Shown here: positions 12,893-40,499 of the stretch, in pieces
Layout of the letters: each line of letters starts with the position of its first letter
How positions within the stretch are numbered: the first letter of the stretch is position 1
DNA from: Clostridium sp.
Lineage (GTDB): Bacteria > Bacillota > Clostridia > Clostridiales > Clostridiaceae
Length of the DNA: 64,000 bases
Direction: 5' to 3'
NCBI GenBank assembly: GCA_031292145.1
Contig: JARLHR010000111.1
Coordinates: 1-64,000, forward strand
Program-made: the position numbers and the translations under genes
Notes under the pieces: generated by a model
What the model was told of the DNA's origin: nothing
The model's input: only the letters and a program-made list of their open reading frames with translations
Databases searched by the model: none

Positions 12893-12921
12893 TTGACAAG
12901 AAGATAAAATGATGATATTAT
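12893..12921 (+). promoter_or_regulatory. Sigma-A-type promoter of the cystine transporter/DK1 operon
   Basis: TTGACA (12893-12898), a 17-nt spacer and TATTAT (12916-12921) form a near-consensus promoter. The start point would fall about 30 nt before the attenuator motif at 12955. Confidence 0.8.
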
Positions 12922-12954
12922 CTTTATAAATCCCATACGAATACTTTGAATTAA

Positions 12955-13018
12955 GCTGACTAGAAAAACTAGAGGCGTTAAATAAAATTATTGTAATTTT
13001 ATTTAATGCCTTTTTTTA
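12955..13018 (+). promoter_or_regulatory. Leader attenuator motif, copy 1
   Basis: GCTGACTAGAAAAACTAGAG forms a small CTAG/CTAG hairpin. It is followed immediately by a terminator whose stem starts at AGGC (AGGCGTTAAATAAAATT against its complement ending GCCTTTTTTT). The same arrangement recurs at 19058, 21665 and 29306. It precedes the ABC transporter and first DK pair. It is not a riboswitch class I recognise. Confidence 0.7.
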
Positions 13019-13072
13019 TTACATAAAAGCAGAGTATTTATATAGGAATAACAAGAATAGGGGGAATTAAAA

Positions 13073-13894
13073 ATGAAAAAATTAAAATTTATAGGAGTGA
13101 TAATGGGAATTGCAATTACAGGTATGTTATTTACGGGATGTGGATCAACTTCTAGTTCAAGTACAGCGAGTAATTCAAATGTTAAGAAAATAATAGTTGG
13201 AACAGGAAATTCGTATAAACCGTACTGCTATTTAGATGAGAAGAATAATCCAGCTGGATTTGATGTTGAGGTATTAAAAGAAGTCAATAAAAGACTTCCA
13301 CAATATGAGTTTGAATTTCAGACAAGCGAATTTAAAAATGTATTGATAAGTTTAGATACAAAAAAAATAGATATAGCAGCTCATGAATATGAAAAAAATC
13401 CAGAAAGAGAAGCAAAATACCTTTATGGAAAAGAAGGATATGCAGATTATTCTCTAAAATTAGCTGTAAAAAAAGGAAGAACAGATATAAAAACTCTTGA
13501 TGATTTAAAAGGAAAAAGTATAACTGTTAGCCAAGGATCTAATGCTGCTTATCTTGTAGAACAGTACAATAAAAAGAATAATAATGCCATTAATATAGTT
13601 TATGGAGCAAGTGATGATGCTGTTCAGTATAATGATGTGGCTACTGGCAGAGTAGATGCAATACTTTTAACAAAGAGCGATTTGAATTTGAAAAATAAAG
13701 CTTATGGAGATAAACTAGAATTTCCAAAAGATGCACCAGTAATAAATGTTTCATATGCTTATTTCCTTTTTGATAAGAGTAATACACAATTACAAGAAGA
13801 TGTGGATAGTGCATTAAAATCTATGAAGGAAGATGGAACATTAGCTAAATTATCAATAGATATTCTAGGTGATGATTATACAAAGAGTGAATAA
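13073..13894 (+). CDS. Amino-acid ABC transporter substrate-binding lipoprotein, cystine type
   Basis: This 273-aa lipoprotein has a signal peptide and lipobox LFTGC (Cys about residue 23), then a type-3 (polar amino acid) binding fold: IVGTGNSYKPYCYLDEKNNP, AGFDVEVLKEVNKRLPQYEF, and LKGKSITVSQGSNA. It captures an amino acid outside the membrane for the two permeases and ATPase that follow. The gene order SBP-permease-permease-ATPase is that of the B. subtilis TcyJKLMN system for cystine and S-alkylated cysteines. The substrate here is inferred from that and from the sulfur context. GGGGGAA precedes the ATG. Confidence 0.82.
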   Translation: MKKLKFIGVIMGIAITGMLFTGCGSTSSSSTASNSNVKKIIVGTGNSYKPYCYLDEKNNPAGFDVEVLKEVNKRLPQYEFEFQTSEFKNVLISLDTKKIDIAAHEYEKNPEREAKYLYGKEGYADYSLKLAVKKGRTDIKTLDDLKGKSITVSQGSNAAYLVEQYNKKNNNAINIVYGASDDAVQYNDVATGRVDAILLTKSDLNLKNKAYGDKLEFPKDAPVINVSYAYFLFDKSNTQLQEDVDSALKSMKEDGTLAKLSIDILGDDYTKSE

Positions 13895-13947
13895 AAATTT
13901 ATAAATACTATTAACTATGCACTATTAAGAAATACAGGGGGAATTTA

Positions 13948-14649
13948 ATGGGAAAATTATTTGATTTTAAATTAATATTTGAATACCTGCCATCGATCTT
14001 AGCACGTATTCATATTACTTTATTGATAGTATTATTAGCAACAATTGTAGGATTACTTTTAGGTGTATTTATAGCGTTGGCTCGAATTTATAAGATTCCA
14101 GTTATCAATCAATTAACTATAATATATATATCATTTATTAGAGGAACACCAATAATTGTACAATTATTTATAGTTTATTATGGTCTCCCAGAAATTTTAA
14201 TAGGCATAGGTATTAACATTAATAGATGGGATAAATTAAATTTTGTATTAGTTACTTATGCCCTTAATAGTGCAGCATTTATGGCTGAAATAATAAGGGC
14301 ATCTATTACAAGTGTACCAATTGGTCAAACAGAAGCTGCTTATTCCATAGGTATGACAAGGTGGCAGGCATTTTATCGTATAATAGCACCTCAAGCTATA
14401 ATTACTTCTTTGCCAAGTTTAGGAACCAGTATAATAGGACTTCTCCAAGATACATCTTTAGCTTACACTCTCGGCATTATTGATATGATGGGACAAGCAC
14501 AAGCTATTGGAGCTAGAACTTTACATACAATTGAAGGATATATTGGTGCTACAATAATTTTTATAGTGTTGAGTATTCTATTAGAAAAAGTATTTTCTAT
14601 AATTGAAAAAAAGGTTACATTTGAAAAAATAATTGGAGACGGTAGGTGA
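13948..14649 (+). CDS. tcyL: Amino-acid ABC transporter permease (TcyL-like)
   Basis: This 233-aa membrane protein of the HisMQ type has about five transmembrane segments (for example ITLLIVLLATIVGLLLGVFI). The EAA loop reads EAAYSIGMTRWQAFYRIIAP, which docks to the ATPase. The charged entry RGTPIIVQLFIVYYG is typical of polar amino-acid permeases. It forms a heterodimer with the next gene product. GGGGGAA precedes the ATG. The symbol is by analogy to TcyL; the substrate is not shown by sequence. Confidence 0.82.
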   Translation: MGKLFDFKLIFEYLPSILARIHITLLIVLLATIVGLLLGVFIALARIYKIPVINQLTIIYISFIRGTPIIVQLFIVYYGLPEILIGIGININRWDKLNFVLVTYALNSAAFMAEIIRASITSVPIGQTEAAYSIGMTRWQAFYRIIAPQAIITSLPSLGTSIIGLLQDTSLAYTLGIIDMMGQAQAIGARTLHTIEGYIGATIIFIVLSILLEKVFSIIEKKVTFEKIIGDGR

Positions 14650-14653
14650 ATTT

Positions 14654-15358
14654 ATGAAATTTGATATAGCATTTGCATTTATTGCGTTAAAAGAAGCGTT
14701 AAAATATACTCCAATTACGCTAATTCTGGCTATTGTACCTCTAATTATTGGCATAATCCTGGGAACGCTTGTTGCAATAGGAAGATTATTTAAAATTAAA
14801 ATATTGGGAAGGTTATTACAAGCATTTGTGGTGACTATTAAGGGTATACCATTAGTACTTCAAATCATAATTATTAACTTCGCAGTTATTCAGCCTGTTG
14901 ACTATTTTTCAGAAAAATATAACTGGTCATTTGCTTCAAAAGATATAAATAGAATTTATATAGTTTTGGTAGCTTTGTCTATATTTTCTGTAGTAAATAT
15001 ATCGGAAGCAATACGTGGAGCACTTATAGCAGTAGATAAAGGTCAATACGAAGCTGCCTATTCAGTTGGTTTAACTAGAACACAAACGTTGATACGAATT
15101 ATATTGCCTCAAGCTTTTCCAGTAGCGGTACCAGTTCTATGTAATAATTTTATTGGTCTTATTAAAGGTTCATCATTAGCTTTTATACTTTCTGTTACAG
15201 ATCTTATGAATGGAGCTTTAATTGCTGCTACATCAAATTATAGATATTTAGAAGCTTATGTGGCATCAGCATTAGTTTATTGGGTCATTTGTATTACTAT
15301 TGAGAAAGCCTCATTTATTTTAGAGAAACGTCTTAATGTAAAGGAGGGATTTATTTGA
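14654..15358 (+). CDS. tcyM: Amino-acid ABC transporter permease (TcyM-like)
   Basis: This 234-aa HisMQ-type permease has the EAA loop [20 protein letters not shown] and about five membrane segments. GGTAGGTG, which overlaps the stop of the previous gene (14647-14649), favours the ATG at 14654 over an in-frame TTG at 14633 that would overlap by 17 nt. Its last 4 nt overlap the ATPase gene, indicating translational coupling. Confidence 0.82.
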
Positions 15359-16107
15359 TTGAAATAAAGGGTATTCATAAGAAGTTTGGTAAAAATGAAG
15401 TATTAAAGGGTGTTGATATTAAAGTCAATAAAGGCGAAGTTATTGTAATATTAGGACCTAGTGGCTCTGGAAAAACTACTTTATTAAGGTGTATAAATTT
15501 TCTTGAAAAAGCAGATGACGGTGAGTTAGCAGTAGGAGAAAAGAGCGTTCATTTTAAAAGTGCAACTAAAAAAGACATATTAGAAATTAGAAGGCAGACA
15601 GCTATGGTATTTCAAAGCTACAATCTCTTTAGCAATAAAACAGCTCTTGAAAATGTAATGGAAGGATTAATTATTGCAAGAAAGATACCTAGAAATGAAG
15701 CGGAGGAAATAGGGAAAAGGACATTAGATAAGGTTGGATTAAGAGATAAATATAATTTTTATCCATCACAGCTTTCAGGTGGGCAGCAGCAGCGAGTTGG
15801 AATTGCACGTGCTGTTGCCCTAAACCCAGAAGTGATTTTATTTGATGAACCAACATCTGCCCTTGATCCAGAGCTTGTAGGAGAAGTACTTTCTGTAATG
15901 AAAGCTATAGCAAAAGAAGGAATTACTATGATTGTAGTTACCCATGAAATGTCTTTTGCATCAGACATAGCAAGCAGGGTGATTTTTATGGATGGAGGAG
16001 TGATTGTAGAAGAAGGTTCACCAAAAGATATATTCACAAGACCAAAAGAAGAACGAACTAAGCAGTTTTTAAAGAGAATACTTCCAGAATGGAGTTATAC
16101 AATTTAG
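15355..16107 (+). CDS. tcyN: Amino-acid ABC transporter ATPase (TcyN-like)
   Basis: The 250-aa ABC ATPase has Walker [10 protein letters not shown] (residues 33-41), Q-loop FQSYNLF, signature LSGGQQQR, Walker B VILFDEP and switch His in VVTHEM. It starts with TTG overlapping the permease stop by 4 nt, with AAGGAGGG at 15341. It energises import by the two preceding permeases. The nitrogenase-like D1 gene follows 48 nt later with no terminator, so transporter and enzyme are likely one operon. Confidence 0.88.
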
Positions 16108-16155: not shown

Positions 16156-17628
16156 GTGGCTATAGATTTAAAAATATCTTCAGTTGGGACAAGAGAGAGT
16201 CGTTTAGGTTCTATAACAGGATATAATGGTGACTTACATGACATCGTTAATAAATCCCAATGTGGAACGCTAAAAAATAAGGAGAGATGTTTTAGTCAAT
16301 CAAGCACATGTAATGCAATGTGTGCATTAGGGCAATTATCAGGAATAAGAGATGTAGCAATAATAAATCATGCACCATCAGGATGTACAGCAGTTGCATC
16401 AGGTATTAATGTAAATAATAATCAGTTGGCAACTAAACGAGGAGTTTCAAATAGCACAGTATTTTTAGGAACAGATATGGATGAAAATGATACTGTATTT
16501 GGAGCTACCGGAAGTCTTAAGGAAATAATATTAGAAACTTATAATAGATACAAACCAAAAGCTATATTTATAGGTACATCATGTGTATCTGGAATTATTG
16601 GTGAGGATGTTGATAGTGTAGTTGAAGAAGTTAAAAAAGAAATACCAGATGATATTCCAGTAGCAGCAGTTCACTGCGAAGGCTTTAGATCAAGAATATG
16701 GGCAACGGGATTTGATGCATCAGACCATGCTGTTCTTAGCAGCATAGTAAAACCACCCAAAAAGAAAACTAATAAAATTAATTTTAAGAATTTCTATGAA
16801 AGTGAAAGAAAACAAATAATTGATATATTTAGTAACTTTGGAGTTGAACCAGTATTTTTTTATCAAAACTCTACTGTAGAAGAATTATCGCATCTTTCAG
16901 AAGCGCTTGCAACTGTAAGTATATGTGGAGTTTTAGGTTCATATTTAGGAAATGGATTAGAACAGCAATATGGAGTTCCATTTGTAAAAACAATTAATCC
17001 ATTAGGCGCTGCAGGGTTTGAAACATGGCTTAGAGGTATTGGTACAGCTGTTAGAAAAGAAAAGGAAGTAGAAGCTTATATCGAAAGAGAAAGAGCAATT
17101 TATCTTCCTAAAATAGAGGAAGTTAAAAAAGAACTTAAGGGATTAAAAGCTGTACTTGGAATGGGCCCGGGATATACATATGAAGTATCTCGTGTTCTTC
17201 AAGAATTGGAAATGGAAGTAGTTTGGGCTGCATCATGGCACCATGATAAAATGCATGATAATGAAGACTTGCCAGCACCACTTAAATATTTAGCTGAAAA
17301 TTCCAAAGATAATTTTAAAGTAAGTGTAGCAGACCAACAAAATTTTGAAATTTTAAATATAATAAACCATTATAAACCAGATATTTATTTTTCGCGTCAC
17401 CCAGGTACTACTGTTTGGGCGATTAAGCAGGGGGCAGCAGCATTATGCGTAAATGATGAATATATGATTTTTGGATATAAGGGTACTCTTGATTTTGCTT
17501 ATACAGTTTTAGATACAATTAAGAACAGAAGTTTTGAAAAAAATTTAGCAGCTAGGGTTAAACTTCCTTATACAGAATGGTGGTACAAACAAGAAAATTC
17601 AACGTTCTTACTAGAGGAGGCAAAATAA
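16156..17628 (+). CDS. Nitrogenase-like component 1, D-type subunit (D1)
   Basis: The 490-aa protein belongs to the NifD superfamily. Cys at 52, 77 and 143 (STC, APSGC, GTSCVSGIIGED) match the three P-cluster ligands of NifD. Cys257 in LATVSICGVLGSYLGNGLEQ aligns with the FeMo-co ligand Cys275. The region that holds His442 in NifD reads ALCVNDEYMIFGYKG (430-444) and has no His, so classical FeMo-co binding is unlikely. The N-terminus VGTRESRLGS and the cystine-transporter operon resemble group IV/VI nitrogenase-like enzymes such as methylthio-alkane reductase. Inferred role: reductive C-S cleavage. The start is GTG 16156 after GGGGGAA. Confidence 0.8.
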   Translation: MAIDLKISSVGTRESRLGSITGYNGDLHDIVNKSQCGTLKNKERCFSQSSTCNAMCALGQLSGIRDVAIINHAPSGCTAVASGINVNNNQLATKRGVSNSTVFLGTDMDENDTVFGATGSLKEIILETYNRYKPKAIFIGTSCVSGIIGEDVDSVVEEVKKEIPDDIPVAAVHCEGFRSRIWATGFDASDHAVLSSIVKPPKKKTNKINFKNFYESERKQIIDIFSNFGVEPVFFYQNSTVEELSHLSEALATVSICGVLGSYLGNGLEQQYGVPFVKTINPLGAAGFETWLRGIGTAVRKEKEVEAYIERERAIYLPKIEEVKKELKGLKAVLGMGPGYTYEVSRVLQELEMEVVWAASWHHDKMHDNEDLPAPLKYLAENSKDNFKVSVADQQNFEILNIINHYKPDIYFSRHPGTTVWAIKQGAAALCVNDEYMIFGYKGTLDFAYTVLDTIKNRSFEKNLAARVKLPYTEWWYKQENSTFLLEEAK

Positions 17629-17630
17629 AA

Positions 17631-18929
17631 ATGGCTAAAATATTAGATCAACCAAGATATAAATGTGCACTAGCTGCAATGCAGACTGTACAATCAATAG
17701 AAGGTGCTATACCCATATTACATGCAGGTCCAGGGTGCGGTGCTAAGCTTGGAAGCGGAGCAGGAAATTCAGGACATTTTTCACATAATATTTTTCCATG
17801 TACTAATATAAGTGAAAAAGAAGTAGTTTTTGGTGGAGAAAAAAAATTAAATGAAATAGTGGAAAATTCATTAAAGGTTATAGATGCTGATTTATATGTG
17901 GTGCTAACAAGCTGTACATCAGAGGTTATTGGTGATGATGCAGAAGAAATTGCACGTTCTTTTAGGGAGGATGGGAAACCAGTAATATTTACATCTACAC
18001 CAGGATTTAAAGGAAATAACTATTTAGGTCATGAATGGGTAATTGACTCTATTATAAATCAATACTTAGAACCAAGTGATGAAAAGATAAAAGGACTTGT
18101 TAATATTTGGGCAGGAATTCCATTGCATGATCCATTTTGGTTAGGAAATTTAAGAGAATTAGAAAAGCTTATAGAACAGCTAGGATTAATACCAAATACT
18201 ATATTTGGACATGATAGGGGAATTAAGAATTTAAATAAGGTTCCACAAGCTGAATTTAATCTTTTAGTTTCACCATGGCTTGGATTAAATAATGTTAAAA
18301 ACCTAGAAAGAAAATTTGGAACTCCTTATCTTCACTATCCTGTTCTGCCGGTAGGTGCAACAGAAACAAGTAAGTTTTTAAGGGCAGTTGGAGACTTTGC
18401 TGGAATTGATAAGGAAAAGGTAGATAAAATTATAGAAAAGCAAGAAAAAGAATATTATTACTATATTGAACGATTTGCAGATGTATTCCTTGAAACACGT
18501 GTAATGTCAAAGCGTTTTGTTGTAGTCTCAGATTCACAATATTCACTTGCATTAACAAAATTCTTAGTAAATGATTTAGGCTTATTTCCAGCCAAACAAT
18601 TTATAATTGATGATGCACCAGAAAAATATAGAAAACCTATAGAAGGATATTTTAAAGAATTAAATTATGATATTGAAGCAGATGTAGAATTCTCTGTTGA
18701 TGGACATAAGATTCATGAGGAAATAAAAAATACAGATTATCATGGTTATCCTTTAATTTTAGGAAGCTCATGGGAAAAGAAGGCTGCCAAAGATACAGAA
18801 GGTCATTACTTAGCTATATCATGGCCAATTAATGAGAGATTGGTTATTAATAGTTCATATGTAGGGTATACAGGAGGGCTTAAGCTTTTAGAAGATATAT
18901 ATTCTGTGGTTCTTACTAGATTTAATTAA
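17631..18929 (+). CDS. Nitrogenase-like component 1, K-type subunit (K1)
   Basis: The 432-aa K-type subunit starts MAKILDQPRYKCALAAMQTV. P-cluster Cys are at 12 (RYKC), 36 (AGPGC) and 95 (LTSCTSEVIGDD), like NifK Cys70, 95 and 153. It lacks the long N-terminal extension of NifK. It shares TPGFKGNNYLGHE, SPWLGLNNVKNLERKFGTPY and LPVGATETSKFL with K2, but the two are clearly diverged. GAGGAGG at 17614-17620, inside the end of D1, sets the ATG at 17631, 2 nt after the D1 stop; a longer frame from 17577 would overlap D1 and lacks a site. It forms the component 1 heterotetramer with D1. Confidence 0.82.
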   Translation: MAKILDQPRYKCALAAMQTVQSIEGAIPILHAGPGCGAKLGSGAGNSGHFSHNIFPCTNISEKEVVFGGEKKLNEIVENSLKVIDADLYVVLTSCTSEVIGDDAEEIARSFREDGKPVIFTSTPGFKGNNYLGHEWVIDSIINQYLEPSDEKIKGLVNIWAGIPLHDPFWLGNLRELEKLIEQLGLIPNTIFGHDRGIKNLNKVPQAEFNLLVSPWLGLNNVKNLERKFGTPYLHYPVLPVGATETSKFLRAVGDFAGIDKEKVDKIIEKQEKEYYYYIERFADVFLETRVMSKRFVVVSDSQYSLALTKFLVNDLGLFPAKQFIIDDAPEKYRKPIEGYFKELNYDIEADVEFSVDGHKIHEEIKNTDYHGYPLILGSSWEKKAAKDTEGHYLAISWPINERLVINSSYVGYTGGLKLLEDIYSVVLTRFN

Positions 18930-19475
18930 AAAGATAATGTATTAATATATATTTCAATTAACAATGCATGGTTAAGGTTACTGTTAGATCTATTAATAGA
19001 GTAAAACTGAGTAAACATATAAAAATAAGAAAATACTTGCGCAGTATTTAAGTAAATCTGAATGAAAAATCAGAGGACTTACTTCTAAAAAAATAGAAGT
19101 AAGTCCTCTTTTTTAAGAAATATTAGTGAAATAAATTTATTTCTAAATTCATTTACGATTTTTAAAATTCCTTTAATGGATTAATTGTTCCTTCTTCAGT
19201 ACTTCTAATCACAGTAGCCACCATAAGTTATAGTTTTTCAAATCTTTGCACACTTCTCAAGGGTTTCTCTTAATATATTTTTATGTTTATTTAGGGAATG
19301 GTTTCTTTTTACAAATAAGACTTTTCATTGAGTTTTATGACACAATTTGTTAGAATGTGTATATAAGCATAGACAAATTTAAAGTTATAGTAAGAGTTAT
19401 CGACTATAAATATAGTATTAGTGAATATTATAATAAAATATTATATATTATGGGGAATTTTAGGGGGAGAATTAC
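18930..19475. other. Intergenic region after DK1
   Basis: It contains attenuator-like copy 2 (19058-19114), which also serves as a terminator. The rest is AT-rich with no supported gene. A short minus-strand segment near 19155-19220 translates as MVATVIRSTEEGTINPLKEF but has no RBS and is only 20 codons, so I do not call it. Confidence 0.5.
19058..19114 (+). promoter_or_regulatory. Leader attenuator motif, copy 2
   Basis: CTGAATGAAAAATCAGAGGA repeats the hairpin-AAAA-hairpin-GAGG pattern. A perfect terminator begins within GAGG (GAGGACTTACTTCTA against TAGAAGTAAGTCCTC, then TTTTTT). No strong promoter is visible just upstream, so it may terminate the DK1 operon or be the leader of a lost gene. 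Confidence 0.65.
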
Positions 19476-20939: not shown

Positions 20940-21192
20940 AGATAAATGCGTTGAAAGGAATAAGTATATTAAGGAAAGTTTTCAGAGAGGAATTCTTAAA
21001 ATAGCTGAAAGGAATTCTAAATGGAACTTAATAGAATGCATCCTGGAGCACTAAGTTGAACAAGCGGTAGGCTTAGCAGGAGTGCCTGATATAGCACAAA
21101 GAGATGTTATGTGTAATAATTTAAACATAATAATCAGAGTGGGACCGCGGATATTTTCTGCCTCTGTTTAACAACAGAGGCAGTTTTCTTTA
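20940..21192 (+). ncRNA. T-box riboswitch, apparent cysteine (UGC) specifier
   Basis: The T-box sequence AGAGTGGGACCGCGG is at 21136-21150, followed by terminator TGCCTCTGTT and AACAGAGGCA with TTTTCTTT. Stem I features include AGAGAGGAATTC (20984) and a second GGAATTC arm. The specifier loop reads GAATGCA (21034-21040), giving TGC (Cys) at 21037-21039 in the usual GAA-NNN-A setting. Stem II is AAGCGGTAGGCTTAGCAGG onward. Uncharged tRNA-Cys would permit antitermination. It controls the YezD-type gene at 21316 and possibly genes beyond. Confidence 0.88.
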
Positions 21193-21315: not shown

Positions 21316-21468
21316 ATGGAAATTAGTAGTAGGGAAATTATTGAAGACAAAAAACTTAAAGAAATATTTAAGATGATTGAAAAAATAAAATACGGGTCTA
21401 TAACATTGATAATACAAGATGGCGTAATTATACAAGTAGACAAGAATGAGAAAATAAGAATGAAATAA
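21316..21468 (+). CDS. YezD/DUF2292-family small protein
   Basis: The 50-aa protein has the C-terminal pattern IKYGSITLIIQDGVIIQVDK followed by NEKIRMK. This is the DUF2292 (YezD) signature, a short basic protein repeatedly found in sulfate/cysteine assimilation operons and of unknown biochemical role. AGGGGGA at 21301-21307 is placed 8 nt before the ATG. Being directly downstream of a Cys-type T-box, it should be made when cysteine is short. No terminator is obvious before the next promoter at 21575. Confidence 0.8.
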   Translation: MEISSREIIEDKKLKEIFKMIEKIKYGSITLIIQDGVIIQVDKNEKIRMK

Positions 21469-21603: not shown

Positions 21604-21664
21604 ATAACAAAACACAGTAAATTTATAAGAATAAACGGAATTTTTAAATAATATTTTAGTAAAT

Positions 21665-21722
21665 CTGACTGGAAAACCAGAGGATGTACTTCTAAGTAAT
21701 AGAAGTATGTCCTCTTTTCTTT
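21665..21722 (+). promoter_or_regulatory. Leader attenuator motif, copy 3
   Basis: CTGACTGGAAAACCAGAGGA forms a CTGG/CCAG hairpin with an AAAA loop. The terminator starts in GAGG (GAGGATGTACTTCTA against TAGAAGTATGTCCTC, then TTTT). The stem bases differ from copy 1 (CTAG) but pairing is kept, which indicates selection on RNA structure. Confidence 0.75.
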
Positions 21723-21760: not shown

Positions 21761-22063
21761 ATGGTAACAATTAATTTAAATGAATCTTCAGTAACTATAA
21801 GAGAATCAAGATTGGGTTCAAAATATTTCTGACTTTAGGTCTGCAGAAGTTGAATTTAATGTAGATGCTGGATCAGTTCAAATAGAAATAGAAAAAGAGT
21901 CCCAGGAAAGCAGAGTATTAATCCTTGGAAGTGGGAGGGACAAGAATCTTCCAGCAAAAGAAAGTGGAGGTAGAGGTAAAATGATGGAGTTTAATTTTGA
22001 CACTATAAAGGTTATAGGAGGATATAAGACTTAAAACAAGCAGTCAGAGAAGCTTTGAAATAA
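21761..22063 (+). pseudogene. Frameshifted gene upstream of nifH with a D-subunit-like N-terminus
   Basis: CAGGGAGG (21741-21748) and ATG 21761 start MVTINLNESSVTIRESRLGS, similar to the N-terminus of D1 (VGTRESRLGS), then a TGA at 21830. Another frame continues SDFRSAEVEFNVDAGSVQIE, IEKESQESRVLILGSGRDKN and so on to TAA at 22032. A second shift restores DLKQAVREALK to TAA at 22061-22063. The middle is not recognised and lacks nitrogenase Cys motifs. It could be a decayed accessory gene or a deletion relic of a third D gene. The intact promoter, leader and RBS suggest recent decay. Confidence 0.55.
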
Positions 22064-22170: not shown

Positions 22171-23046
<876 letters not shown>

Positions 23047-29275: not shown

Positions 29276-29305
29276 AAACAAAATTATGAAGGACTTTTAA
29301 ATGAA

Positions 29306-29365
29306 GTTGACTAGAAAACTAGAGGCTAAGTTTCCAATTATAAAGGATACTTGGCCTTATTGTTT
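29306..29365 (+). promoter_or_regulatory. Leader attenuator motif, copy 4
   Basis: GTTGACTAGAAAACTAGAGG repeats the motif, followed by a stem AGGCTAAGT against ACTTGGCCT with a weaker T run (TATTGTTT). It stands between mccA and D2, so it may tune D2K2 expression within the mccBA transcript. Confidence 0.7.
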
Positions 29366-32558: not shown

Positions 32559-33116
32559 ATGGCTAAAATACTTACACGAGAGGAAGCGTGGGACTTATTA
32601 ACAGAATATAATCAAGATAATTTTCATTTAGAACATGCTACAATTGTAGAAAATACTCTTCGCTATTTTGCAAAAGAGCTTGGCTATGAAGATGACGTTG
32701 ATTTTTGGGGAATTGTAGGATTGCTTCATGATTTAGATTTTGAAAAATATCCAGAAGCACATTGTATAAAACAGCAAGAAATTATGCATGAACGTGGAAT
32801 TGATGAAGCAATAATCCACGCTACTGCAAGTCATGGCTATGCTATTACTGTTGATATTAAGCCTGAACATGAAATGGAGAAAGTTTTATATGCTGTGGAT
32901 GAGTTAACAGGATTGATAGGCGCAGTTGCCATTATGAGGCCATCAAAAAGTGTTCAAGATTTAGAAGTAAAATCAGTGAAAAAGAAATATAAAAATTCCA
33001 AATTTGCTGCTGGATGCTCTAGAGAGGTTATTGAAAGAGGAGCTGCAATGCTTGGCTGGGAACTAGATGACTTAATTGAAAAAACAATTAATGCATTAAG
33101 AACATTTCAAAAATAA
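32559..33116 (+). CDS. HD-domain hydrolase
   Basis: The 185-aa HD-superfamily protein has His27-type start (FHLEHATIVENTLRYFAKEL), the HD pair in GIVGLLHDLDFEKYP, His in AIIHATASHGYAI, and Asp in YAVDELTGL. The family hydrolyses phosphate esters such as nucleotides, but the substrate is not evident. Its promoter carries the same operator motif as the sulfur operons, so it probably belongs to the same regulon, although a sulfur role is not obvious from its sequence. AAAGGATG precedes the ATG at 32559. Confidence 0.82.
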   Translation: MAKILTREEAWDLLTEYNQDNFHLEHATIVENTLRYFAKELGYEDDVDFWGIVGLLHDLDFEKYPEAHCIKQQEIMHERGIDEAIIHATASHGYAITVDIKPEHEMEKVLYAVDELTGLIGAVAIMRPSKSVQDLEVKSVKKKYKNSKFAAGCSREVIERGAAMLGWELDDLIEKTINALRTFQK

Positions 33117-33432: not shown

Positions 33433-35085
33433 ATGAAAAATAAATATTTATCATTGTTAACAATAATATTTTTATTATGTGGAATTATTTTAACAGGCTG
33501 TAAACCACAAGAATCACCAAAAATAGAAACTAGCCAAACAGCAGCACAATCAGGAGGCACATTAAAATATGCCTTATGGAGTTCGCCTCCAGGTGTATTC
33601 CATCCAAGCTTAAGTTCAAATGTTTATGATAATAAAATAATTGATTTAGTATATGAAAAATTAATAAATATAGATGAAAGTGGTAATTATATACCAGGTC
33701 TTGCTGATAAATATGAAGTATCAAGTGATCAGCTTACTATAACTTTTTACTTAAGCAAAACTGCAAAGTGGCATGATGGTCAAGCAGTAACTGCTGATGA
33801 CGTTGCATATACCTATACAACTATAGCTGATCCAGATTATGACGGACCAAGATTTTCACAAGTGGAAAATATAGTTGGAGCAAAAGATTACAAAGCTAAA
33901 GAAGCAACTAGTATTTCAGGAATCAAGGTTATTGATGACCATACTGTAAGCTTTACTTTTTCACAAGTATATTCACCAGCCCTTGCTACTTTTGCACAAA
34001 GAGGTATAATTCCAAAGCATATATGGGAAAAGATACCCGTAGCACAATGGTCAAAGAGTGATCAGCTTAAAAAACCAATTGGAAGCGGACCTTTTAAATT
34101 TAAGGATTTTGTCCCAGGCCAATCTGTAGAACTTGAAAAGTATTCAGATTATAATTTAGGAGAACCTAAGTTAGATGGTATTATATTTAAAGTTGCTAAT
34201 CAGGATACTGCACAATCAGAACTTATAAAAGGAGATTTAGATTTAGTTCAGATATCTTCATTTAATCAAAAGGATTTAGATGCATATAAACAAGCAGGAA
34301 TAACTGAATTGGAAAATGATGGAGTAAGTTATCAATTCTTGGGCTTTAATTTTGATAATCCTACGCTAAAAGATCAAAAGTTTAGACAAGCAATAGAATA
34401 TGCTATTAATCGTAAAGGTATAGTTGATAGTGTATTAGAAGGTCATGGTAAAGTTGTTAATACTGTCTTTTCATCAAAAAGCTGGGCAAATCCTGGTGAA
34501 GATGATCTTAATAAGTATGAGTATAGCACCGATAAGGCTAAATCATTATTACAAGAAGATGGTTATGAGTTAAAAGATGGAGTGTTATATAAGGACGGAC
34601 AACCAGTAAAATTATCTTTAAAATATTCAACTGGTAATAAACCAAGAGAACAATCTGCTGTATTAATCCAACAAAACTTAAAAGATATTGGGATTGATGT
34701 TAACATTGAGAGTATGGAATATGCAACTCTTTCGCAACAATTGGACCAAAAGGATTTTCAAATATATCTTTTAGGCTGGACTAATGATATAGATCCAGAC
34801 ATTAAGAGTTCATGGTATTCAACTCCAGGAAGCATAATTGCAAAATTTGAAGATTTTTCAAATCCAAATTTAGATAAGTTAATTGATGCTGGAAGAAGCG
34901 ATTTTGATCAAAATAAACGTAAAGCGGCTTATAAAGATTTAGCAAAAGAATTTAATGATACAGTTCCAGCAGTATTGTTATATAGCTCGAATGATGGATA
35001 TGCATATAATCCAAAATTAAAAAATTATAAGCCAATTCCGTATAATGAATTTTCAAATGTTCAAAACTGGTATTTAGAACAATAA
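33433..35085 (+). CDS. Peptide ABC transporter substrate-binding lipoprotein (DppA/OppA type)
   Basis: The 550-aa family-5 lipoprotein has lipobox LTGCKP (Cys about residue 23). It contains GGTLKYALWSSPPGVFHPSL, VTADDVAYTYTTIADPDYDG, IGSGPFKFKDF and QKFRQAIEYAINRKGIVDSV, all typical of peptide/nickel binders. It captures peptides outside the membrane for the following permeases. With two gamma-glutamyl-hydrolase genes in the same operon, glutathione or gamma-glutamyl-cysteine-type peptides are plausible substrates (inference). AAGGGGGAAA precedes the ATG. Confidence 0.85.
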   Translation: MKNKYLSLLTIIFLLCGIILTGCKPQESPKIETSQTAAQSGGTLKYALWSSPPGVFHPSLSSNVYDNKIIDLVYEKLINIDESGNYIPGLADKYEVSSDQLTITFYLSKTAKWHDGQAVTADDVAYTYTTIADPDYDGPRFSQVENIVGAKDYKAKEATSISGIKVIDDHTVSFTFSQVYSPALATFAQRGIIPKHIWEKIPVAQWSKSDQLKKPIGSGPFKFKDFVPGQSVELEKYSDYNLGEPKLDGIIFKVANQDTAQSELIKGDLDLVQISSFNQKDLDAYKQAGITELENDGVSYQFLGFNFDNPTLKDQKFRQAIEYAINRKGIVDSVLEGHGKVVNTVFSSKSWANPGEDDLNKYEYSTDKAKSLLQEDGYELKDGVLYKDGQPVKLSLKYSTGNKPREQSAVLIQQNLKDIGIDVNIESMEYATLSQQLDQKDFQIYLLGWTNDIDPDIKSSWYSTPGSIIAKFEDFSNPNLDKLIDAGRSDFDQNKRKAAYKDLAKEFNDTVPAVLLYSSNDGYAYNPKLKNYKPIPYNEFSNVQNWYLEQ

Positions 35086-35097
35086 AAATTATTTAAA

Positions 35098-35140
35098 ATA
35101 TGAGGCTTTAGGAATATGTAAATATGCCTAGGCCTCATAT
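35098..35140 (+). other. Intraoperon stem-loop
   Basis: ATATGAGGC pairs with GCCTCATAT, with inner TTTAGG/CCTA around AATATGTAAATATG. There is no T run after it. Placed between the binding protein and permease genes, it may protect the upstream mRNA and raise binding-protein levels. Confidence 0.55.
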
Positions 35141-35198
35141 GTGCATAAAAGGAAAGCTTATCTTTTGAAAATTAATATATTGAGAGGAAGGCAAATGA

Positions 35199-36161
35199 AT
35201 GTTTAAATATGCAATAAAACGTATGATAAACACTATACCAATACTTATAGGTATATCTATAATAGTATTTATTCTTATTAACTGTCAACCAGGTAACCCA
35301 TATTCTAATATGGTAGATCCAACTGTGACAGAAGAAGTAAAAGAGCAAATGCTTAGGCAGATTGGTTATTATGATCCATTACCAGTTAAATATTTTAAAT
35401 GGGTAACAAGAGCAGTGCAAGGAGATTTGGGATATTCAATTACTTATAAACAACCTGTACTAGATGTAATAAGTTCAAGAATTGGAAATACAGTTTTACT
35501 TGGTACAGCATCATTGTTTTTAAGCATTCTAATAGCAATACCTATAGGAATGATTAGTTCTGTCAAAAGATATTCGGTCTTTGATTATATTATGACAGTA
35601 TTAGCATTTATAGGTTTATCTATTCCAGCTTTTTTCTTTGGGCTGCTTTTGATTAAAGTGTTTTCAGTAGATTTGAAAATATTACCTGTATCTGGAATGG
35701 TCACTATTGGAAAAAATTATGAAGGCATAAATCATGTTATGGATGTTTTTAATCATATGATTTTACCAACTATTGTACTAGCACTATTAAATACAGCTTC
35801 TTTTATGAGATATACAAGATCAAGCATGATAGATATAATTGGCCAGGATTACATAAGAACAGCAAGAGCAAAAGGGGTATCTTCTCGTATGATTGTCTTA
35901 AAGCATGCTTTTAAAAATGCATTGATTCCAATTATAACTGTTATTAGCTTAGAACTTCCTACTTTGTTTTCAGGAGCTTTAGCTACAGAAACAATTTTTG
36001 TATGGCCGGGAATAGGAAGATTAAATTTTGAAGCAGTAACTAACAGAGATTATTCCTTAATAATGGGATTGGTTATGATATTTGCAGTAGTAACTCTTTT
36101 ATCTAATTTAATTGCAGATATTTTATATGCGGCAGTAGATCCTAGAATTAAATATGATTAA
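35199..36161 (+). CDS. Peptide ABC transporter permease (DppB type)
   Basis: The 320-aa permease has six predicted membrane segments. It starts FKYAIKRMINTIPILIGISI with the usual QPGNPY...LGLDDPL-like segment (IGYYDPLPVKYFKWVTRAVQ). The EAA loop is IRTARAKGVSSRMIVLKHAF followed by KNALIPI, and FVWPGIGRL lies near the end. It pairs with the next gene product. AGGAAGGC lies upstream of the ATG. No regulatory site is seen inside the operon. Confidence 0.88.
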   Translation: MFKYAIKRMINTIPILIGISIIVFILINCQPGNPYSNMVDPTVTEEVKEQMLRQIGYYDPLPVKYFKWVTRAVQGDLGYSITYKQPVLDVISSRIGNTVLLGTASLFLSILIAIPIGMISSVKRYSVFDYIMTVLAFIGLSIPAFFFGLLLIKVFSVDLKILPVSGMVTIGKNYEGINHVMDVFNHMILPTIVLALLNTASFMRYTRSSMIDIIGQDYIRTARAKGVSSRMIVLKHAFKNALIPIITVISLELPTLFSGALATETIFVWPGIGRLNFEAVTNRDYSLIMGLVMIFAVVTLLSNLIADILYAAVDPRIKYD

Positions 36162-36175
36162 AAGGAGGGGTAGAT

Positions 36176-37039
36176 GTGGCTAAGGAAAAGGTATTATCTC
36201 CAGCTAAAATCGCTTTAAATAAATTGAAAAGAAATAAACTTGCAGTATTTGGAGCTGCTGTTTTAATTATATTGATATTATTAGCAATAATTGCACCAGT
36301 AATATCTCCTTACGGAAGAGATACTGTAGACTTATCAAATATAGAATCTGCTCCTACAACTCAGCATATATTAGGAACCGATGAATTAGGACGTGATGTT
36401 TTTGCAAGGCTTATATACGGAGGACAAGTTTCCTTAAGTGTTGGAGTAGTGGCAATTATTATACAGCTTGCTATTGGAATAACCTTAGGGACTATAGCAG
36501 GATATTTAGGTGGAATTGCTGACAAAATAATAATGAGACTTGTAGATATGGTACTATGTTTTCCATTTTTGGTAATAGCAATAACTATGGCATCGATTTT
36601 AGGGCCTAGTATTTGGAACGTTATGATTATAATTGGAATTTTGAGTTGGCCTAAAATTACAAGAATAGTGAGAGCTGAGATTTTATCTTTAAAAGAAAGA
36701 GAATTTATTGAAGCAGCTAAAGCATTAGGGCTAGATAGTAAGGATATTATATTAAAGCATTTAATTCATAATATTTATACGCCAATTATCGTTTATGGAA
36801 CTTTAGGTATAGCCCAGGGAATTTTATATGAATCATTTTTAAGCTTTCTTGGAATGGGAGTGACACAACCACAGCCAAGCTGGGGGAATATGTTATCAGC
36901 AGCTCAAAATATGAGGATTCTCCAAAGTGAATGGTGGTTATGGATTCCACCAGGTTTATGTGTATTTTTGACTATTGTTTCAATTAATTTTTTAGGTGAT
37001 GGTCTTAGAGATGCTTTAGATCCGCAAATAAAGGTATAG
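36176..37039 (+). CDS. Peptide ABC transporter permease (DppC type)
   Basis: The 287-aa permease starts with GTG at 36176 after AAGGAGGGG. It has the N-terminal segment NKLKRNKLAVFGAAVLIILI, then LGTDELGRDVFARLIYGGQV (DppC hallmark), and EAA loop FIEAAKALGLDSKDIILKHL. Near the C-terminus is GDGLRDALDPQIK, another hallmark. The spacing to neighbours is 14 nt on each side, so the operon is compact. Confidence 0.88.
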   Translation: MAKEKVLSPAKIALNKLKRNKLAVFGAAVLIILILLAIIAPVISPYGRDTVDLSNIESAPTTQHILGTDELGRDVFARLIYGGQVSLSVGVVAIIIQLAIGITLGTIAGYLGGIADKIIMRLVDMVLCFPFLVIAITMASILGPSIWNVMIIIGILSWPKITRIVRAEILSLKEREFIEAAKALGLDSKDIILKHLIHNIYTPIIVYGTLGIAQGILYESFLSFLGMGVTQPQPSWGNMLSAAQNMRILQSEWWLWIPPGLCVFLTIVSINFLGDGLRDALDPQIKV

Positions 37040-37053
37040 GAGGTGGAGAGCAG

Positions 37054-38034
37054 GTGGAAAAAGAATTACTTAAAGTAAATAAATTAAAGACAAGCTTTTA
37101 TACATCAGAAGGAAAAGTAACAGCAGTAAATGATGTGAGTTTTAAGATTCAAGAAGGGAAAATACTTGGAATAGTTGGTGAATCAGGCTGCGGTAAAAGT
37201 GTTACCTCCATGTCTATAATGAGACTATTAAATGATTCAATTAGTAAGATTGAGGAAGGAGAAATCATTTTTGAAGGAATTGATATAATTAAGCTTTCTG
37301 AAAAAGAAATGAATAAGATAAGAGGTAATAAGCTTGCAATGATATTTCAAGAGCCAATGACTTCGCTAAATCCAGTGTTCACAATAGGACAGCAGATAGG
37401 TGAAGCAATAAAAATTCATCAAAGGATAAAAGGAAAAGGAAACAAACAAAAATCCATTGAAATGCTAAAGCTTATTGGTATTCCTATGCCAGAGAAGGTT
37501 ATTAATGAATATCCACATCAGCTTAGTGGTGGAATGAGACAAAGAGTTATGATAGCAATGGCACTTTCATGTAATCCTAAATTAATAATTGCTGATGAAC
37601 CAACTACAGCCCTTGATGTTACAATTCAAGCACAGGTTTTAGAACTTATGAAAAAATTAAGCAGAGAGCTTAAAACTTCGATTATGTTAATAACTCATGA
37701 TCTTGGTGTAATTGCTGAGATGGCGGATGATATTATAGTTATGTACGCAGGAAAGATTGTTGAAGAATGCAAAGTTCGGGATATATTTGAAAATTCAAAA
37801 CATCCGTATACTAAAGGTTTATTGTATTCTAGAACTGAGAATTTTAAAAGAGGTGAAAAATTGCACAACATTCCTGGAATGGTGCCAAATTTAAAAGACA
37901 TGCCTATTGGTTGTAGTTTTAATCCAAGATGTGAAAATTGTATGGATATATGTAAAGAAAAAATGCCAAAACTTATAGAAATAGAAAAAGGTCATAAGGT
38001 TAGATGCTGGCTATATAGTGGAAAGGAGGTTTAG
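37054..38034 (+). CDS. Peptide ABC transporter ATPase (DppD type)
   Basis: The 326-aa ATPase has Walker A GESGCGKS (about residues 39-46), Q-loop FQEPMTSLNP, signature LSGGMRQR, and Walker B LIIADEP. The C-terminal oligopeptide/dipeptide domain contains the Cys cluster CSFNPRCENCMDIC, the usual Fe-S-like motif of DppD/DppF. The start is GTG at 37054 after AGGAGGTGGAG. It works as a heterodimer with the next ATPase. Confidence 0.9.
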   Translation: MEKELLKVNKLKTSFYTSEGKVTAVNDVSFKIQEGKILGIVGESGCGKSVTSMSIMRLLNDSISKIEEGEIIFEGIDIIKLSEKEMNKIRGNKLAMIFQEPMTSLNPVFTIGQQIGEAIKIHQRIKGKGNKQKSIEMLKLIGIPMPEKVINEYPHQLSGGMRQRVMIAMALSCNPKLIIADEPTTALDVTIQAQVLELMKKLSRELKTSIMLITHDLGVIAEMADDIIVMYAGKIVEECKVRDIFENSKHPYTKGLLYSRTENFKRGEKLHNIPGMVPNLKDMPIGCSFNPRCENCMDICKEKMPKLIEIEKGHKVRCWLYSGKEV

Positions 38035-38036
38035 TT

Positions 38037-39032
38037 TTGGAAAAGGAATTATTAAAGGTTAAAAACTTAAAAAAATACTATACTAATAAAAAAGGTATTT
38101 TTTTTCGTAATTCTAGAGTAGTTAAAGCTGTTAATGATGTTTCATTTAATATTATAGAAGGTTCCAGCTTTGGATTGGTTGGTGAATCTGGATGTGGAAA
38201 ATCAACAACTGCAAGAACCATACTAAATTTACTCGAGCCTAGCGGAGGTTCTGTTGAATTTAATAACGAAATTATTTATAATGTTGAAGACAATATATAT
38301 CTAAGTAAGGAAGAGATGAGAAGAAAGAGGAAAGAAATGCAGATTATATTTCAAGATCCTTATGCTTCCTTAGATCCTAGGATGAATATTGGTGATATTG
38401 TCACTGAAGGATTGAAAAAGCATAAGATAGCGCTGGGAAATGATGCAATTAATATGGCTAAAGAATTTTTAGAACTTTGTGGCTTACGTGGAGATTCTAT
38501 TAATAAATATCCACATGAATTTAGTGGAGGGCAAAGACAGCGTATAGGAATAGCTAGAGCAATGATATTAAAGCCGAAGTTCATAATAGGAGATGAGCCT
38601 ATATCAGCTTTAGATGTATCAATACAAGCGCAGGTAACTAACTTATTAATTGATTTAAAAGAAAGATTTAAATTAACTTATTTGTTTATATCCCATGATT
38701 TAAGCTTTGTAAGATATTTTTGCGATAGAGTAGCAGTCATGTATCTCGGATCTATTATAGAAATAGGAGATTCTGGGGAGCTGTTTAATAAAAGACTTCA
38801 TCCATATACAAAATCATTGATATCTGCTATTCCAACAACTAATCCTCTGCTTAGAACAAATAGAATAATTCTTGAAGGAGATGTACCAAGTCCTTCTAAT
38901 CCACCTAATGGATGTAAATTTCATACTAGGTGCAAATATTGTACAAAAATTTGCACAGAAGAGGTACCAGCTCTTAAGGAAGTGGATAAAGGATATTTTG
39001 TTGCATGCCACAATTGGCAAGCTATAAATTAG
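38037..39032 (+). CDS. Peptide ABC transporter ATPase (DppF type)
   Basis: The 331-aa ATPase has Walker A GESGCGKST, Q-loop FQDPYASLDPRM, signature FSGGQRQR, and Walker B FIIGDEP. The C-terminal Cys cluster is CKFHTRCKYCTKIC. The start is TTG at 38037, 2 nt after the DppD stop, with GGAGG inside the end of the previous gene. It is followed 15 nt later by a C26 peptidase gene. Confidence 0.9.
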   Translation: MEKELLKVKNLKKYYTNKKGIFFRNSRVVKAVNDVSFNIIEGSSFGLVGESGCGKSTTARTILNLLEPSGGSVEFNNEIIYNVEDNIYLSKEEMRRKRKEMQIIFQDPYASLDPRMNIGDIVTEGLKKHKIALGNDAINMAKEFLELCGLRGDSINKYPHEFSGGQRQRIGIARAMILKPKFIIGDEPISALDVSIQAQVTNLLIDLKERFKLTYLFISHDLSFVRYFCDRVAVMYLGSIIEIGDSGELFNKRLHPYTKSLISAIPTTNPLLRTNRIILEGDVPSPSNPPNGCKFHTRCKYCTKICTEEVPALKEVDKGYFVACHNWQAIN

Positions 39033-39047
39033 AAAGGATGAAATAAA

Positions 39048-39755
39048 ATGAAACCCATAATAGGCATAACTACGTTTCAGGAGATTGAAATAGAAAAATC
39101 TTTTAGTTTAGTAAGCAATAATTATTTAAATGCTGTTGAAAATGCAGGAGGAGTACCACTATTTATTCCTATTAGCGAAGATATGGACGATGTTAAATCT
39201 TATTTGAATATGATTGATGGTATTATTTTTTCAGGCGGAGAAGGAGTAGGCCCTATAAAATTTGGAGAAAACCCATCAAAGGCTATTTCAAATATAAATT
39301 ATTTAAGAGATAATTTTGAATTAGCACTTTTTAAGGAAGCATATAAAAGAGATATGCCTATTTTAGGAGTATGTAGAGGGGCGCAATTAATAAATGTAGC
39401 ATTAGGAGGTAGTCTATACCAAGATATTTTTTCAGAGATTCCAAATTGTCATGGACATATGCCTTCGGGAATGCAGGTGTATGATTTATTTCATATTATT
39501 GATATAGAAGAAAATAGCAAGTTATTTGATATATTTAAAGCTACAGAATTAGAGGTGAATTCTTTTCATCATCAAGCAATAAAAGATTTAGGGAAAGACT
39601 TAAAGGTTACTGCTGCTTCTAAGGATGGAGTTATAGAAGGAATTGAAAGTTTGAGTAGAAAATTCTTAGTTGGAGTACAATGGCATCCAGAAGATTTAAC
39701 TTTAAAACACAAGGAATTTTTAAAACTTTTTAAGGCACTAATTGATAGTATATAA
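39048..39755 (+). CDS. Class I glutamine amidotransferase-like gamma-glutamyl hydrolase (peptidase C26)
   Basis: The 235-aa protein has FSGGEGVGPIKFGE, nucleophile Cys in GVCRGAQLINVALGGSLYQD, VNSFHHQAIKDLG, and catalytic His-Glu in VQWHPED. The PuuD/C26 family cleaves gamma-glutamyl bonds. Placed in a peptide-import operon with a sulfur-type operator, it would release glutamate from imported gamma-glutamyl peptides such as glutathione, freeing Cys-containing dipeptide. The next gene is a paralogue. AGAAAGGATG precedes the ATG. Confidence 0.85.
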   Translation: MKPIIGITTFQEIEIEKSFSLVSNNYLNAVENAGGVPLFIPISEDMDDVKSYLNMIDGIIFSGGEGVGPIKFGENPSKAISNINYLRDNFELALFKEAYKRDMPILGVCRGAQLINVALGGSLYQDIFSEIPNCHGHMPSGMQVYDLFHIIDIEENSKLFDIFKATELEVNSFHHQAIKDLGKDLKVTAASKDGVIEGIESLSRKFLVGVQWHPEDLTLKHKEFLKLFKALIDSI

Positions 39756-39782
39756 CAATAGATAAGCAAGGAGGAGTAACCA

Positions 39783-40499
39783 ATGAAGCCAATAATTGGA
39801 TTAGCTTTGTCTAATCGAGTTAAACCTAAAAAAATATATAGTGTAATAAATAATGATTATATTAAGGCAGTGCAGAAGGCAGGAGGCATACCAATTCTCA
39901 TTCCATTTAGTGATAATATAGAAAATATAAAGGTTTATGCTAATAAAATTCAAGGAATTATTTTTACAGGTGGAGAAGATATATCACCTTTAGCTTATAA
40001 TGAAGATCCAATAAAAGAAGTTGAATGTATAATTGAAGAAAGAGATAGATTTGAGTTAGAACTTTTTAAGGAAGTATATGAGAAGAATATACCTATTTTG
40101 GGAATATGCAGAGGCCTTCAGCTTATTAATGTAGCACTTGGTGGAAGCTTGAATCAAGATATTTATGTTCAAATTCCTAATTGCAATGGGCATTCACCTA
40201 AGCATGTTTTAAGATCAAATTTGTATCACTCAGTAAAAATTGAAGAAGAAAGTAAATTATTTGATATCTTTAAAACTAAAGAGTTAAAAGTTAATTCATT
40301 TCATCATCAAAGTGTAAAAAAGCTTGGAACTGACTTAAAGGTAACAGCGTTTTCTAACGATGGAATAGTCGAAGCAATTGAAAGTATCAATAATAAATTT
40401 CTAGTTGCTGTACAATGGCATCCAGAAAATTTAGTAGAGAAGCATGAAGAATTTTTAAAGTTTTTTAAAGCATTAATCAATAATGCCAAGGAAACGTAA
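39783..40499 (+). CDS. Second gamma-glutamyl hydrolase (peptidase C26)
   Basis: The 238-aa tandem paralogue keeps all catalytic features: FTGGEDISPLAYNEDPIKEV, GICRGLQLINVALGGSLNQD, VNSFHHQSVKKLG and VQWHPEN. Differences around the active site (LSNRVKPKKIYSVINNDYIK at the N-terminus) may mean a different peptide or acyl acceptor. It is the last gene of the operon. GGAGGAG precedes the ATG. Confidence 0.85.
   Translation: MKPIIGLALSNRVKPKKIYSVINNDYIKAVQKAGGIPILIPFSDNIENIKVYANKIQGIIFTGGEDISPLAYNEDPIKEVECIIEERDRFELELFKEVYEKNIPILGICRGLQLINVALGGSLNQDIYVQIPNCNGHSPKHVLRSNLYHSVKIEEESKLFDIFKTKELKVNSFHHQSVKKLGTDLKVTAFSNDGIVEAIESINNKFLVAVQWHPENLVEKHEEFLKFFKALINNAKET

Follow-up and report, generated by a model that had tools for sequence, protein, structure and literature searches.

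What do two pairs of nitrogenase-like genes do in a locus that is otherwise rich in sulfur genes? The question is raised by a 64,000-nucleotide stretch of Clostridium sp. DNA (the window), located on contig C272 of a 6.34-Mb draft genome, which between positions 12,893 and 40,499 carries two component-1 gene pairs (D1K1 and D2K2), a reductase gene (H), genes for NifB and a NifX-domain protein, and transporters and enzymes of cysteine and methionine metabolism. The original prediction took this region for a sulfur-acquisition island rather than a site of N2 fixation. When open reading frames were called and searched with Pfam and NCBIfam profiles, which are the basis for the gene assignments in the window, the gene inventory it named was present at about the places it gave, and both sequence and gene context backed the sulfur reading. 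It had passed over three features, namely the relic of a third D gene (21761-21820), an RNA attenuator at 12952, 21661 and 29303 (degenerate at 19054), and the NifH-like character of H. We consider it rather probable that the island is a sulfur-starvation toolkit, in which NifB, NifX and H are shared, D2K2 is a methylthio-alkane reductase (Mar), D1K1 is a second enzyme cleaving C-S bonds, and expression is layered.

Two component-1 pairs from different clades

The genes that carry this argument all lie on the forward strand:

16156-17628, +: D1, alpha subunit of a Mar-like reductase clade (308.6 bits to Rhodospirillum rubrum MarD chain 9fmg_A; placed by its own clade and residues)
17631-18929, +: K1, beta subunit (386 bits to MarK 9d9u_C; three P-cluster Cys aligned); the start is most likely 17631 rather than 17577
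22192-23046, +: H, NifH-type reductase, presumed electron donor to D1K1 and D2K2 (TIGR01287, 466 vs 394 bits)
25565-25918, +: NifX-domain protein, presumed cluster carrier (PF02579, 75.9 bits)
26059-26931, +: stand-alone NifB, a radical-SAM (S-adenosylmethionine) protein of 290 residues without a NifX domain (290 bits to NifB 7jma_A)
29399-30931, +: D2, MarD, alpha subunit (868 bits to 9fmg_A)
30953-32311, +: K2, MarK (739 bits to 9d9u_C)

The host genome holds 14 component-1 matches, two of which are short pieces, and the other 12 are divided between the island (four) and contigs C256 and C101 (eight). Since four of these 12 lie here and the same gene set recurs in relatives, the cluster is not a product of chance. 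Among the proteins of C256 and C101, one groups with Nostoc VnfD and others with NGR234 NifE. NifH is represented in the host by three strong genes, of which the island holds one, and by one weak match. As nif-type and Vnf-like genes are thus present elsewhere, the island would add to nitrogen fixation and not replace it. All four D and K proteins of the island fall below every curated nitrogenase cut-off listed in NCBIfam.

By sequence, clade and residues, D2K2 is assigned as a methylthio-alkane reductase, an enzyme that uses an H protein, ATP, a P-cluster and an [Fe8S9C] cluster to cleave C-S bonds (PMC12552129). D2 shares 375 of 497 aligned residues (75%) with R. rubrum MarD and groups with it in a clade of 13 rows with support of 100. 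All 12 mapped residues, whose roles in the MarD pocket and as ligands are taken from PMC12552129, are kept in D2 (the P-cluster Cys, Cys270, Arg428-His429, Cys73, Gln74, His194, Trp195, Phe199 and His375), and K2 keeps its P-cluster Cys. A MarH-type partner was not found in the island, where H is of the NifH type; this concerns the whole MarBHDK system and not D2K2 itself.

D1 is different, with only 171 of 483 residues (35%) identical to MarD. The clades given here come from a quick tree of 94 D-type rows, which has Shimodaira-Hasegawa-like approximate likelihood-ratio support only and for which long-branch warnings were printed. Its "NifD-like" rows are Clostridium cluster c4, a label derived from their position beside a NifH. 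In this tree, D1 belongs to a clade of 24 rows (support 98) separate from that of R. rubrum MarD, and a set of 59 rows (support 99) holds both the Mar and the D1 clades and leaves the NifD-like, VnfD and NifE rows outside. Hence neither pair falls inside the canonical nitrogenases, and the second, differently equipped pair of the original prediction is borne out as D1K1, which stands in its own clade apart from one true Mar pair. The tree was built without Rhodobacter capsulatus IsrD, Endomicrobium NfaD, CfbD, ChlN, BchN and the Heliophilum proteins, and so the placement of D1 relative to these rests on residues and on published text.

The residues of the D1 cluster (82 distinct sequences, linked at 55% identity) fall into an invariant and a changed set. 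Cys66, Cys91 and Cys158, Cys270, Arg428, His429, Trp195, Phe199 and His375 are kept in 82 of 82 sequences. At position 73, Cys occurs in none of the 82 (Gly 40, Ser 38, Asn 2, Ala 1, His 1), and at position 194 His occurs in none (Ile 80, Val 2); the Mar cluster has Cys73 in 10 of 11 sequences, with one gap, and His194 in 11 of 11. Trp and Phe stand in D1 where NifD has Gln191 and His195. The Arg-His pair, proposed as a possible hallmark of Mar (PMC12552129), reaches more widely than Mar, because it is kept across the D1 clade and in clusters c3, c6, c7, c17, c19, c21 and c24; the pair is absent from D3, a type further removed (20 rows). D1K1 thus fails the curated subunit cut-offs, the clade and the Gln191/His195 signature of Nif, Vnf and Anf nitrogenases, and by these sequence criteria it appears to be neither Mar nor nitrogenase. 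We infer that it is a second reductive C-S-cleaving enzyme with another substrate: the invariant cluster ligands suggest the same machinery as Mar, the changed pocket positions suggest a different substrate, and the CysK-like neighbour seen in relatives suggests sulfide or a thiol as the product. The one or two C-S-cleaving enzymes expected earlier are therefore one assigned by sequence and clade, D2K2, and one for which the reaction is an inference, D1K1.

The D1 clade also defines a recurrent gene set. A scan of genome contigs gave 131 loci encoding a D1 relative, and the best 80 of them (62-95% identity) belong to Clostridium, Pelosinus, Propionispira, Lachnospiraceae, Treponema, Bacteroidales and others. 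Among these 80 (in brackets, the 57 that span at least 18 kb), H is present in 60 (46), NifB in 57 (45), NifX in 56 (44), a CysK-like gene of the NPNQ type in 50 (38), and another gene of the CysK/MccA type in 55 (42), where NPNQ is the sequence standing in place of NPGG in the MccA of the window. A single D gene was seen in 56 of the 80. Where D1 itself was called (76 loci), a CysK-family gene lies immediately upstream on the same strand in 55, 43 of these being of the NPNQ type, and the four NPNQ/CysK-like neighbours scanned were all below the cysteine-synthase cut-offs. A component-1 search in 21 genomes gave matches in all 21, and four (G503, G505, G507 and G512) hold only the D1K1 pair, with one NifH each close to it; these are drafts of unstated completeness. 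Because D1K1 is the sole component-1 pair found there, it seems able to do without NifEN or a further DK pair.

H is NifH-like and not MarH-like, scoring 499 bits against Clostridium pasteurianum NifH and 289 against MarH, and it is 78-85% identical to eleven H proteins, ten from D1 loci and one from a Treponema saccharophilum plasmid. The island NifB, with 282 bits, is under the full-length nifB cut-off of 344, and it is expected to make the [Fe8S9C] cluster.

An RNA hairpin and terminator before the modules

The modules of the island are preceded by copies of one short element, a small hairpin followed by an intrinsic terminator:

12952-13017, +: attenuator copy 1, leader of the importer-D1K1 genes (33.8 bits to model R1)
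19054-19113, +: degenerate attenuator with an intact terminator (16 bits)
21661-21722, +: attenuator copy 2, before the stretch with the relic and H (38.2 bits; exact pattern match)
29303-29362, +: attenuator copy 3, just upstream of D2 (34.5 bits; weak T-run)

The three numbered copies are in the alignment of the model that scores them. In copy 1 the small hairpin reads CTAG-AAAAA-CTAG and the terminator follows, and when the leader of the importer-D1K1 genes was aligned in five genomes, a conserved CTGACTAG-AAAA-CTAGAGG, again followed by a terminator, was found. The site equivalent to 19054 carries an intact copy in G038 and G027, where it precedes the substrate-binding protein (SBP) gene of an importer that is missing from the window.

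A loose pattern gave 72 distinct candidate copies in the loci gathered, some of them surely due to chance (one lies inside metN), and since these loci were chosen for their nitrogenase-like genes, the counts of neighbours are biased. The next gene is NifB in 18 copies, a D2-like D in 12, an importer SBP in nine, D1 in four, H in four, another island gene in seven and unassigned in 15, with none within 1.2 kb in three; the tail of a YezD gene lies directly upstream in 13 of 72 by a strict test. A stem of -12 kcal/mol or better that ends at a T-run is present in 62 of 72 copies, and in 48 of those 62 the 5' arm of the terminator starts inside the small hairpin, so that the two structures would be mutually exclusive.

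Base pairing in the hairpin was examined in 61 aligned copies, and of the 244 cells that these give for the four pairs, 99.6% are paired. Changes on both sides of a pair occur in 28 cells compared with 10.2 in shuffles, and the covariation score is 0.370 compared with 0.216, neither being reached in any of 500 shuffles. The pairs with a double change and the number of pair types are not above the shuffles (422 and 423 of 500), two of the four pairs never vary, and the search patterns with which copies were collected allowed the changing pairs to vary only from purine to purine or from pyrimidine to pyrimidine.

Further evidence was obtained from the distribution of the element. In the host genome, a search with up to two mismatches found two sites only, both in the island (the one remaining copy has a five-base loop), and none for the reversed pattern. 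Among 98 relatives the motif was present in 16 and the reversed control in none, and it was present in 12 of 12 genomes with a D protein above 200 bits and in 4 of 86 others (Fisher p = 2e-12, uncorrected for kinship). A model search of 398 genomes from the phylum gave matches in 76 at E<=0.01 and in 28 at 1e-5, the E-values being rough and about four chance genomes being expected at 0.01. Eleven genomes have D1 relatives at 1e-40; ten are among the 76 and eight among the 28, in the same sample as far as the genome identifiers show. A looser pattern with one mismatch gave 90 sites in 55 of the 398 genomes and 15 for the reversed control, and so a share of the weak sites is due to chance.

When the best model site of each of 30 genomes, host included, was taken, 10 of the 30 loci had a gene identified as sulfur-related or nitrogenase-like within two genes downstream (H, MccB, NifX, cysH-sat, NifB and an importer SBP once each, ATP-sulfurylase twice and a CysK type twice). 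Five others had ABC (ATP-binding cassette) importers, of which four match MetN or MetQ best by their ATPase or SBP (29-38%) and one was recognized by eye, their type being uncertain. The remaining loci had PF03601 transporters (two), MetK, by eye (one), and other, unassigned or no genes (12, including RACo-like and FtsX proteins). SAM riboswitches were found 71 to 330 bases upstream of the element in 3 of 14 loci scanned.

The element resembles T-box and SAM (S-box) leaders in that these also act by transcription attenuation of sulfur amino acid genes, and both were found upstream of attenuator copies; it differs from them in being a 4-bp hairpin that mostly overlaps its terminator. No Rfam family scored over its gathering threshold at the attenuator in the sequences scanned, and permissive scans gave sub-threshold matches only. 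A known riboswitch before the importer genes was considered and rejected, as a scan against Rfam at E up to 0.5 returned nothing beyond a sub-threshold match to a small RNA, which pointed to the terminator and therefore to the attenuator element. Kink-turn and ANTAR motifs were considered as readings of the element as well. Literature searches, with most subscription papers outside their reach, found no description of it. For bacilli, the accessible part of PMC2965389 mentions an attenuator that precedes an ABC operon for sulfonates, with its alignment in a supplement, and this may be the same element. We give an even chance to the combined claim that the CUGAC-YRG-ANAA-CYRG-AGG attenuator is an undescribed sulfur-regulon switch of Bacillota, gating nitrogenase-like sulfur reductases and sat, cysH, cysK-type, importer and mcc genes, and that the enzyme of the D1K1 clade is a reductive desulfurase coupled to cysteine synthase and frequent among bacteria of the rumen and gut, the NifH of which has been taken to mark N2 fixation in the gut. 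The attenuator could serve as a handle on how anaerobes sense sulfur limitation.

A proposed shared cofactor supply and the competing functions of D1K1

In the mechanism we propose, NifB would make the [Fe8S9C] cluster and NifX would carry it, and one NifH-type protein would feed ATP-driven electrons through the P-cluster to [Fe8S9C] in exchangeable DK modules. D2K2 would release methanethiol from methyl thioethers, and D1K1, with the same clusters and another pocket, would act on a different small organosulfur compound and release sulfide or a thiol for capture by enzymes of the cysteine-synthase family. Expression would be layered, with a Cys T-box before yezD and the hairpin/terminator attenuator before each module, under presumed operon limits and a presumed direction of control.

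Several of these features have parallels. MarBHDK of R. rubrum shares the NifB partner, the assigned membership of D2K2 (sequence, clade and 12 of 12 residues) and, with D1K1, both cluster-ligand sets and Arg428-His429, but the island differs in its NifH-type H, in that one H and one NifB appear to serve several DK modules, and in the other clade and changed pocket of D1K1. In Heliophilum fasciatum, NflDK2-5 likewise comprise several DK homologues, one of them Mar, and one H has been proposed for more than one pair (PMC9147875). Group IV-A nitrogenase-like loci near type I mlp clusters place MarHDK-like genes beside CysK, MccA, PatB and methionine genes with a proposed sulfur role; those loci are centred on corrinoid methyltransferases, and the accessible text does not treat D1-clade ligands or the RNA element (PMC10418091). 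For the termite-gut spirochete P. corrugata, a group IV nifDK operon with a cysteine synthase and a suggested sulfur role is described, in the accessible text without residue or clade analysis (PMC13067680).

D1K1 could instead be a nitrogenase of the NifEN-less or group IV (Endomicrobium) kind that fixes N2. The NifH model accepts H, N2 fixation by means of a group IV enzyme is reported for Endomicrobium (PMC11423573, PMC4995403) and a NifEN-less Mo-nitrogenase exists (PMC11573651), but the failed cut-offs, the Trp and Phe at the NifD Gln191/His195 positions, the place of D1 outside the NifD-like, VnfD and NifE rows, the sulfur context and the nif-type genes already in the host make this quite improbable. 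That D1K1 is a further methylthio-alkane reductase, sharing the substrates of Mar, would fit the shared ligands and Arg428-His429 and the neighbouring clades within one 59-row set; we consider it unlikely in view of the 35% identity, the clade-wide changes at positions 73 and 194, and the CysK-like gene beside D1.

Two further functions for D1K1 were weighed and rejected. Isethionate reductase (Isr) or another sulfonate reductase is suggested by importers resembling SsuA and SsuC, below cut-offs, near many D1 loci, and IsrBHDK of R. capsulatus is indeed a nitrogenase-like system for sulfur assimilation (PMC11423573). However, by the criteria of the same paper, IsrD has a single P-cluster Cys left out of three and is without both cofactor ligands, and the likeness of IsrB to NifB is limited to the radical-SAM motif; the two P-cluster Cys and the cofactor Cys that IsrD has lost are kept in D1, which retains all ligands and stands with NifB, and this function is very improbable. 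A NifEN-like scaffold that matures the cluster for D2K2 is conceivable since NifEN is homologous and holds the same cluster (PMC12552129), but it is extremely improbable given the MarD Arg-His loop of D1 and the 4 of 21 genomes in which D1K1 is the sole component-1 pair found.

For D1K1 as a sulfur reductase within a salvage island, several observations weigh on the other side. The host has seven matches to the sulfite/nitrite reductase family NIR_SIR, two of them in one reading frame, and so it need not depend on salvage. The island H is 85% identical to the host NifH on C101, and the tree of H proteins leaves it and its relatives without a resolved position, so that its partners are assigned from its location in the island. 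The NPNQ-type CysK-like partner of D1 was not found in the host, where the family has three matches, two of them canonical and a third (on C17) unread. Finally, the attenuator also occurs in genomes without such nitrogenase-like enzymes.

If D1K1 is nevertheless a sulfur reductase, surveys of gut nitrogen fixation would be affected. Two of the four genomes with D1K1 alone are Lachnospira multipara (G505, ATCC 19207; G507, LB2003). For the human gut, nifH sequences have been reported that reach 98% identity to L. multipara NifH and belong to a group within nifH Cluster III, and Clostridiales were named among candidate N2 fixers (PMC4995403). The same source notes that L. multipara NifD is without the usual histidine; the cofactor histidine of MarD is on a different loop from that of NifD (PMC12552129), and D1 carries its histidine on the MarD loop. 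Part of such nifH counts would then not report N2 fixation. The point concerns a part only, because 15N2 incorporation has been measured in faeces and the usual NifD histidine is retained elsewhere in that clade (PMC4995403). Nitrogenase-type clusters are known to act on sulfur compounds in only a few enzymes, and the D1 clade would add a reaction to this chemistry and a sulfur route in animal guts.

Gained and lost modules and neighbouring genes

The remaining features of the island are as follows:

13073-16107, +: polar-amino-acid/cystine-type ABC importer (SBP, two permeases, ATPase) directly upstream of D1 (SBP_bac_3 in Pfam; TcyN best for the ATPase, below cut-off)
20942-21168, +: T-box leader, specifier UGC (Cys) (RF00230, 102.9 vs gathering 93)
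21316-21468, +: DUF2292 small protein of 50 residues (PF10055, 63.3 bits)
21761-21820, +: relic of a third D gene, of the c3 type, consisting of its 20 opening codons (17 of 20 identical to the intact D of G034)
23120-25471, +: MetN, MetI, MetQ-type importer (ABC ATPase, permease, NlpA lipoprotein; Pfam and gene order)
27204-28364, +: MccB, cystathionine gamma-lyase type (below all equivalog cut-offs)
28361-29275, +: MccA, cysteine synthase family (passes cysK, 353.3 vs 350.95)
32559-33116, +: HD-domain-like protein (below the Pfam cut-off)
33433-39032, +: Opp peptide importer (SBP and first permease by Pfam, the rest by reading)
39048-40499, +: two Peptidase_C26 proteins (Pfam)

The Cys-type T-box predicted earlier before the YezD gene is real: the triplet aligned to the specifier is UGC, followed by an A, and in a T-box the specifier codon precedes that A. 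A T-box implies induction when charged tRNA-Cys is scarce. A similar T-box is present in G051. DUF2292 is the family that we take to be the one called YezD, and the names MetNIQ for the genes at 23120-25471 are likewise our assumption. The Opp importer was seen beyond the island in G038 and not in G034, G050 and G051, and the contigs of G027 and G032 end earlier; whether it and the Peptidase_C26 proteins belong to the island is uncertain.

The relic points to a further module, as the window is without the rest of the c3-type D, its K and the Cys_Met_Meta_PP gene seen in relatives. In G034 and G027 these three genes lie between yezD and H, and in G051 the same D and K and the pyridoxal-phosphate enzyme gene precede H behind a T-box. 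G008 has a different remnant, in which the same D start runs, by reading, into a NifB-like tail. A D3K3 pair, absent from the window, lies between the importer and D1 in L039, L040, L041, L044, L045 and G038. After the relic, an open frame of 70 residues without a Pfam match (21823-22030) ends before H.

Related loci showed other arrangements. In G013 (L020:1492-4098), a c3-type D and K read as one open frame of 868 residues, an apparent D-K fusion, and the genome of Pelosinus propionicus (L042, G494) has 27 component-1 matches, many on one contig. Plasmid pTS2 of T. saccharophilum (L140) carries cysK, a radical SAM protein, NifX, NifH, two component-1 pairs and an ABC importer, and such islands can therefore sit on plasmids. 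A LanM-like protein, below cut-off, is encoded at L060:12679-14049, and its cluster was seen in five D1 loci. A Sporomusa termitida plasmid (L143:2898-6170) encodes a different H-D-K set, directly downstream of an iron ABC importer and followed by an esterase-like protein. The D of this set has retained the P-cluster Cys and not Cys270, L030 of G017 joins it in the tree, and the set is possibly a nitrogenase-like enzyme for iron chelates.

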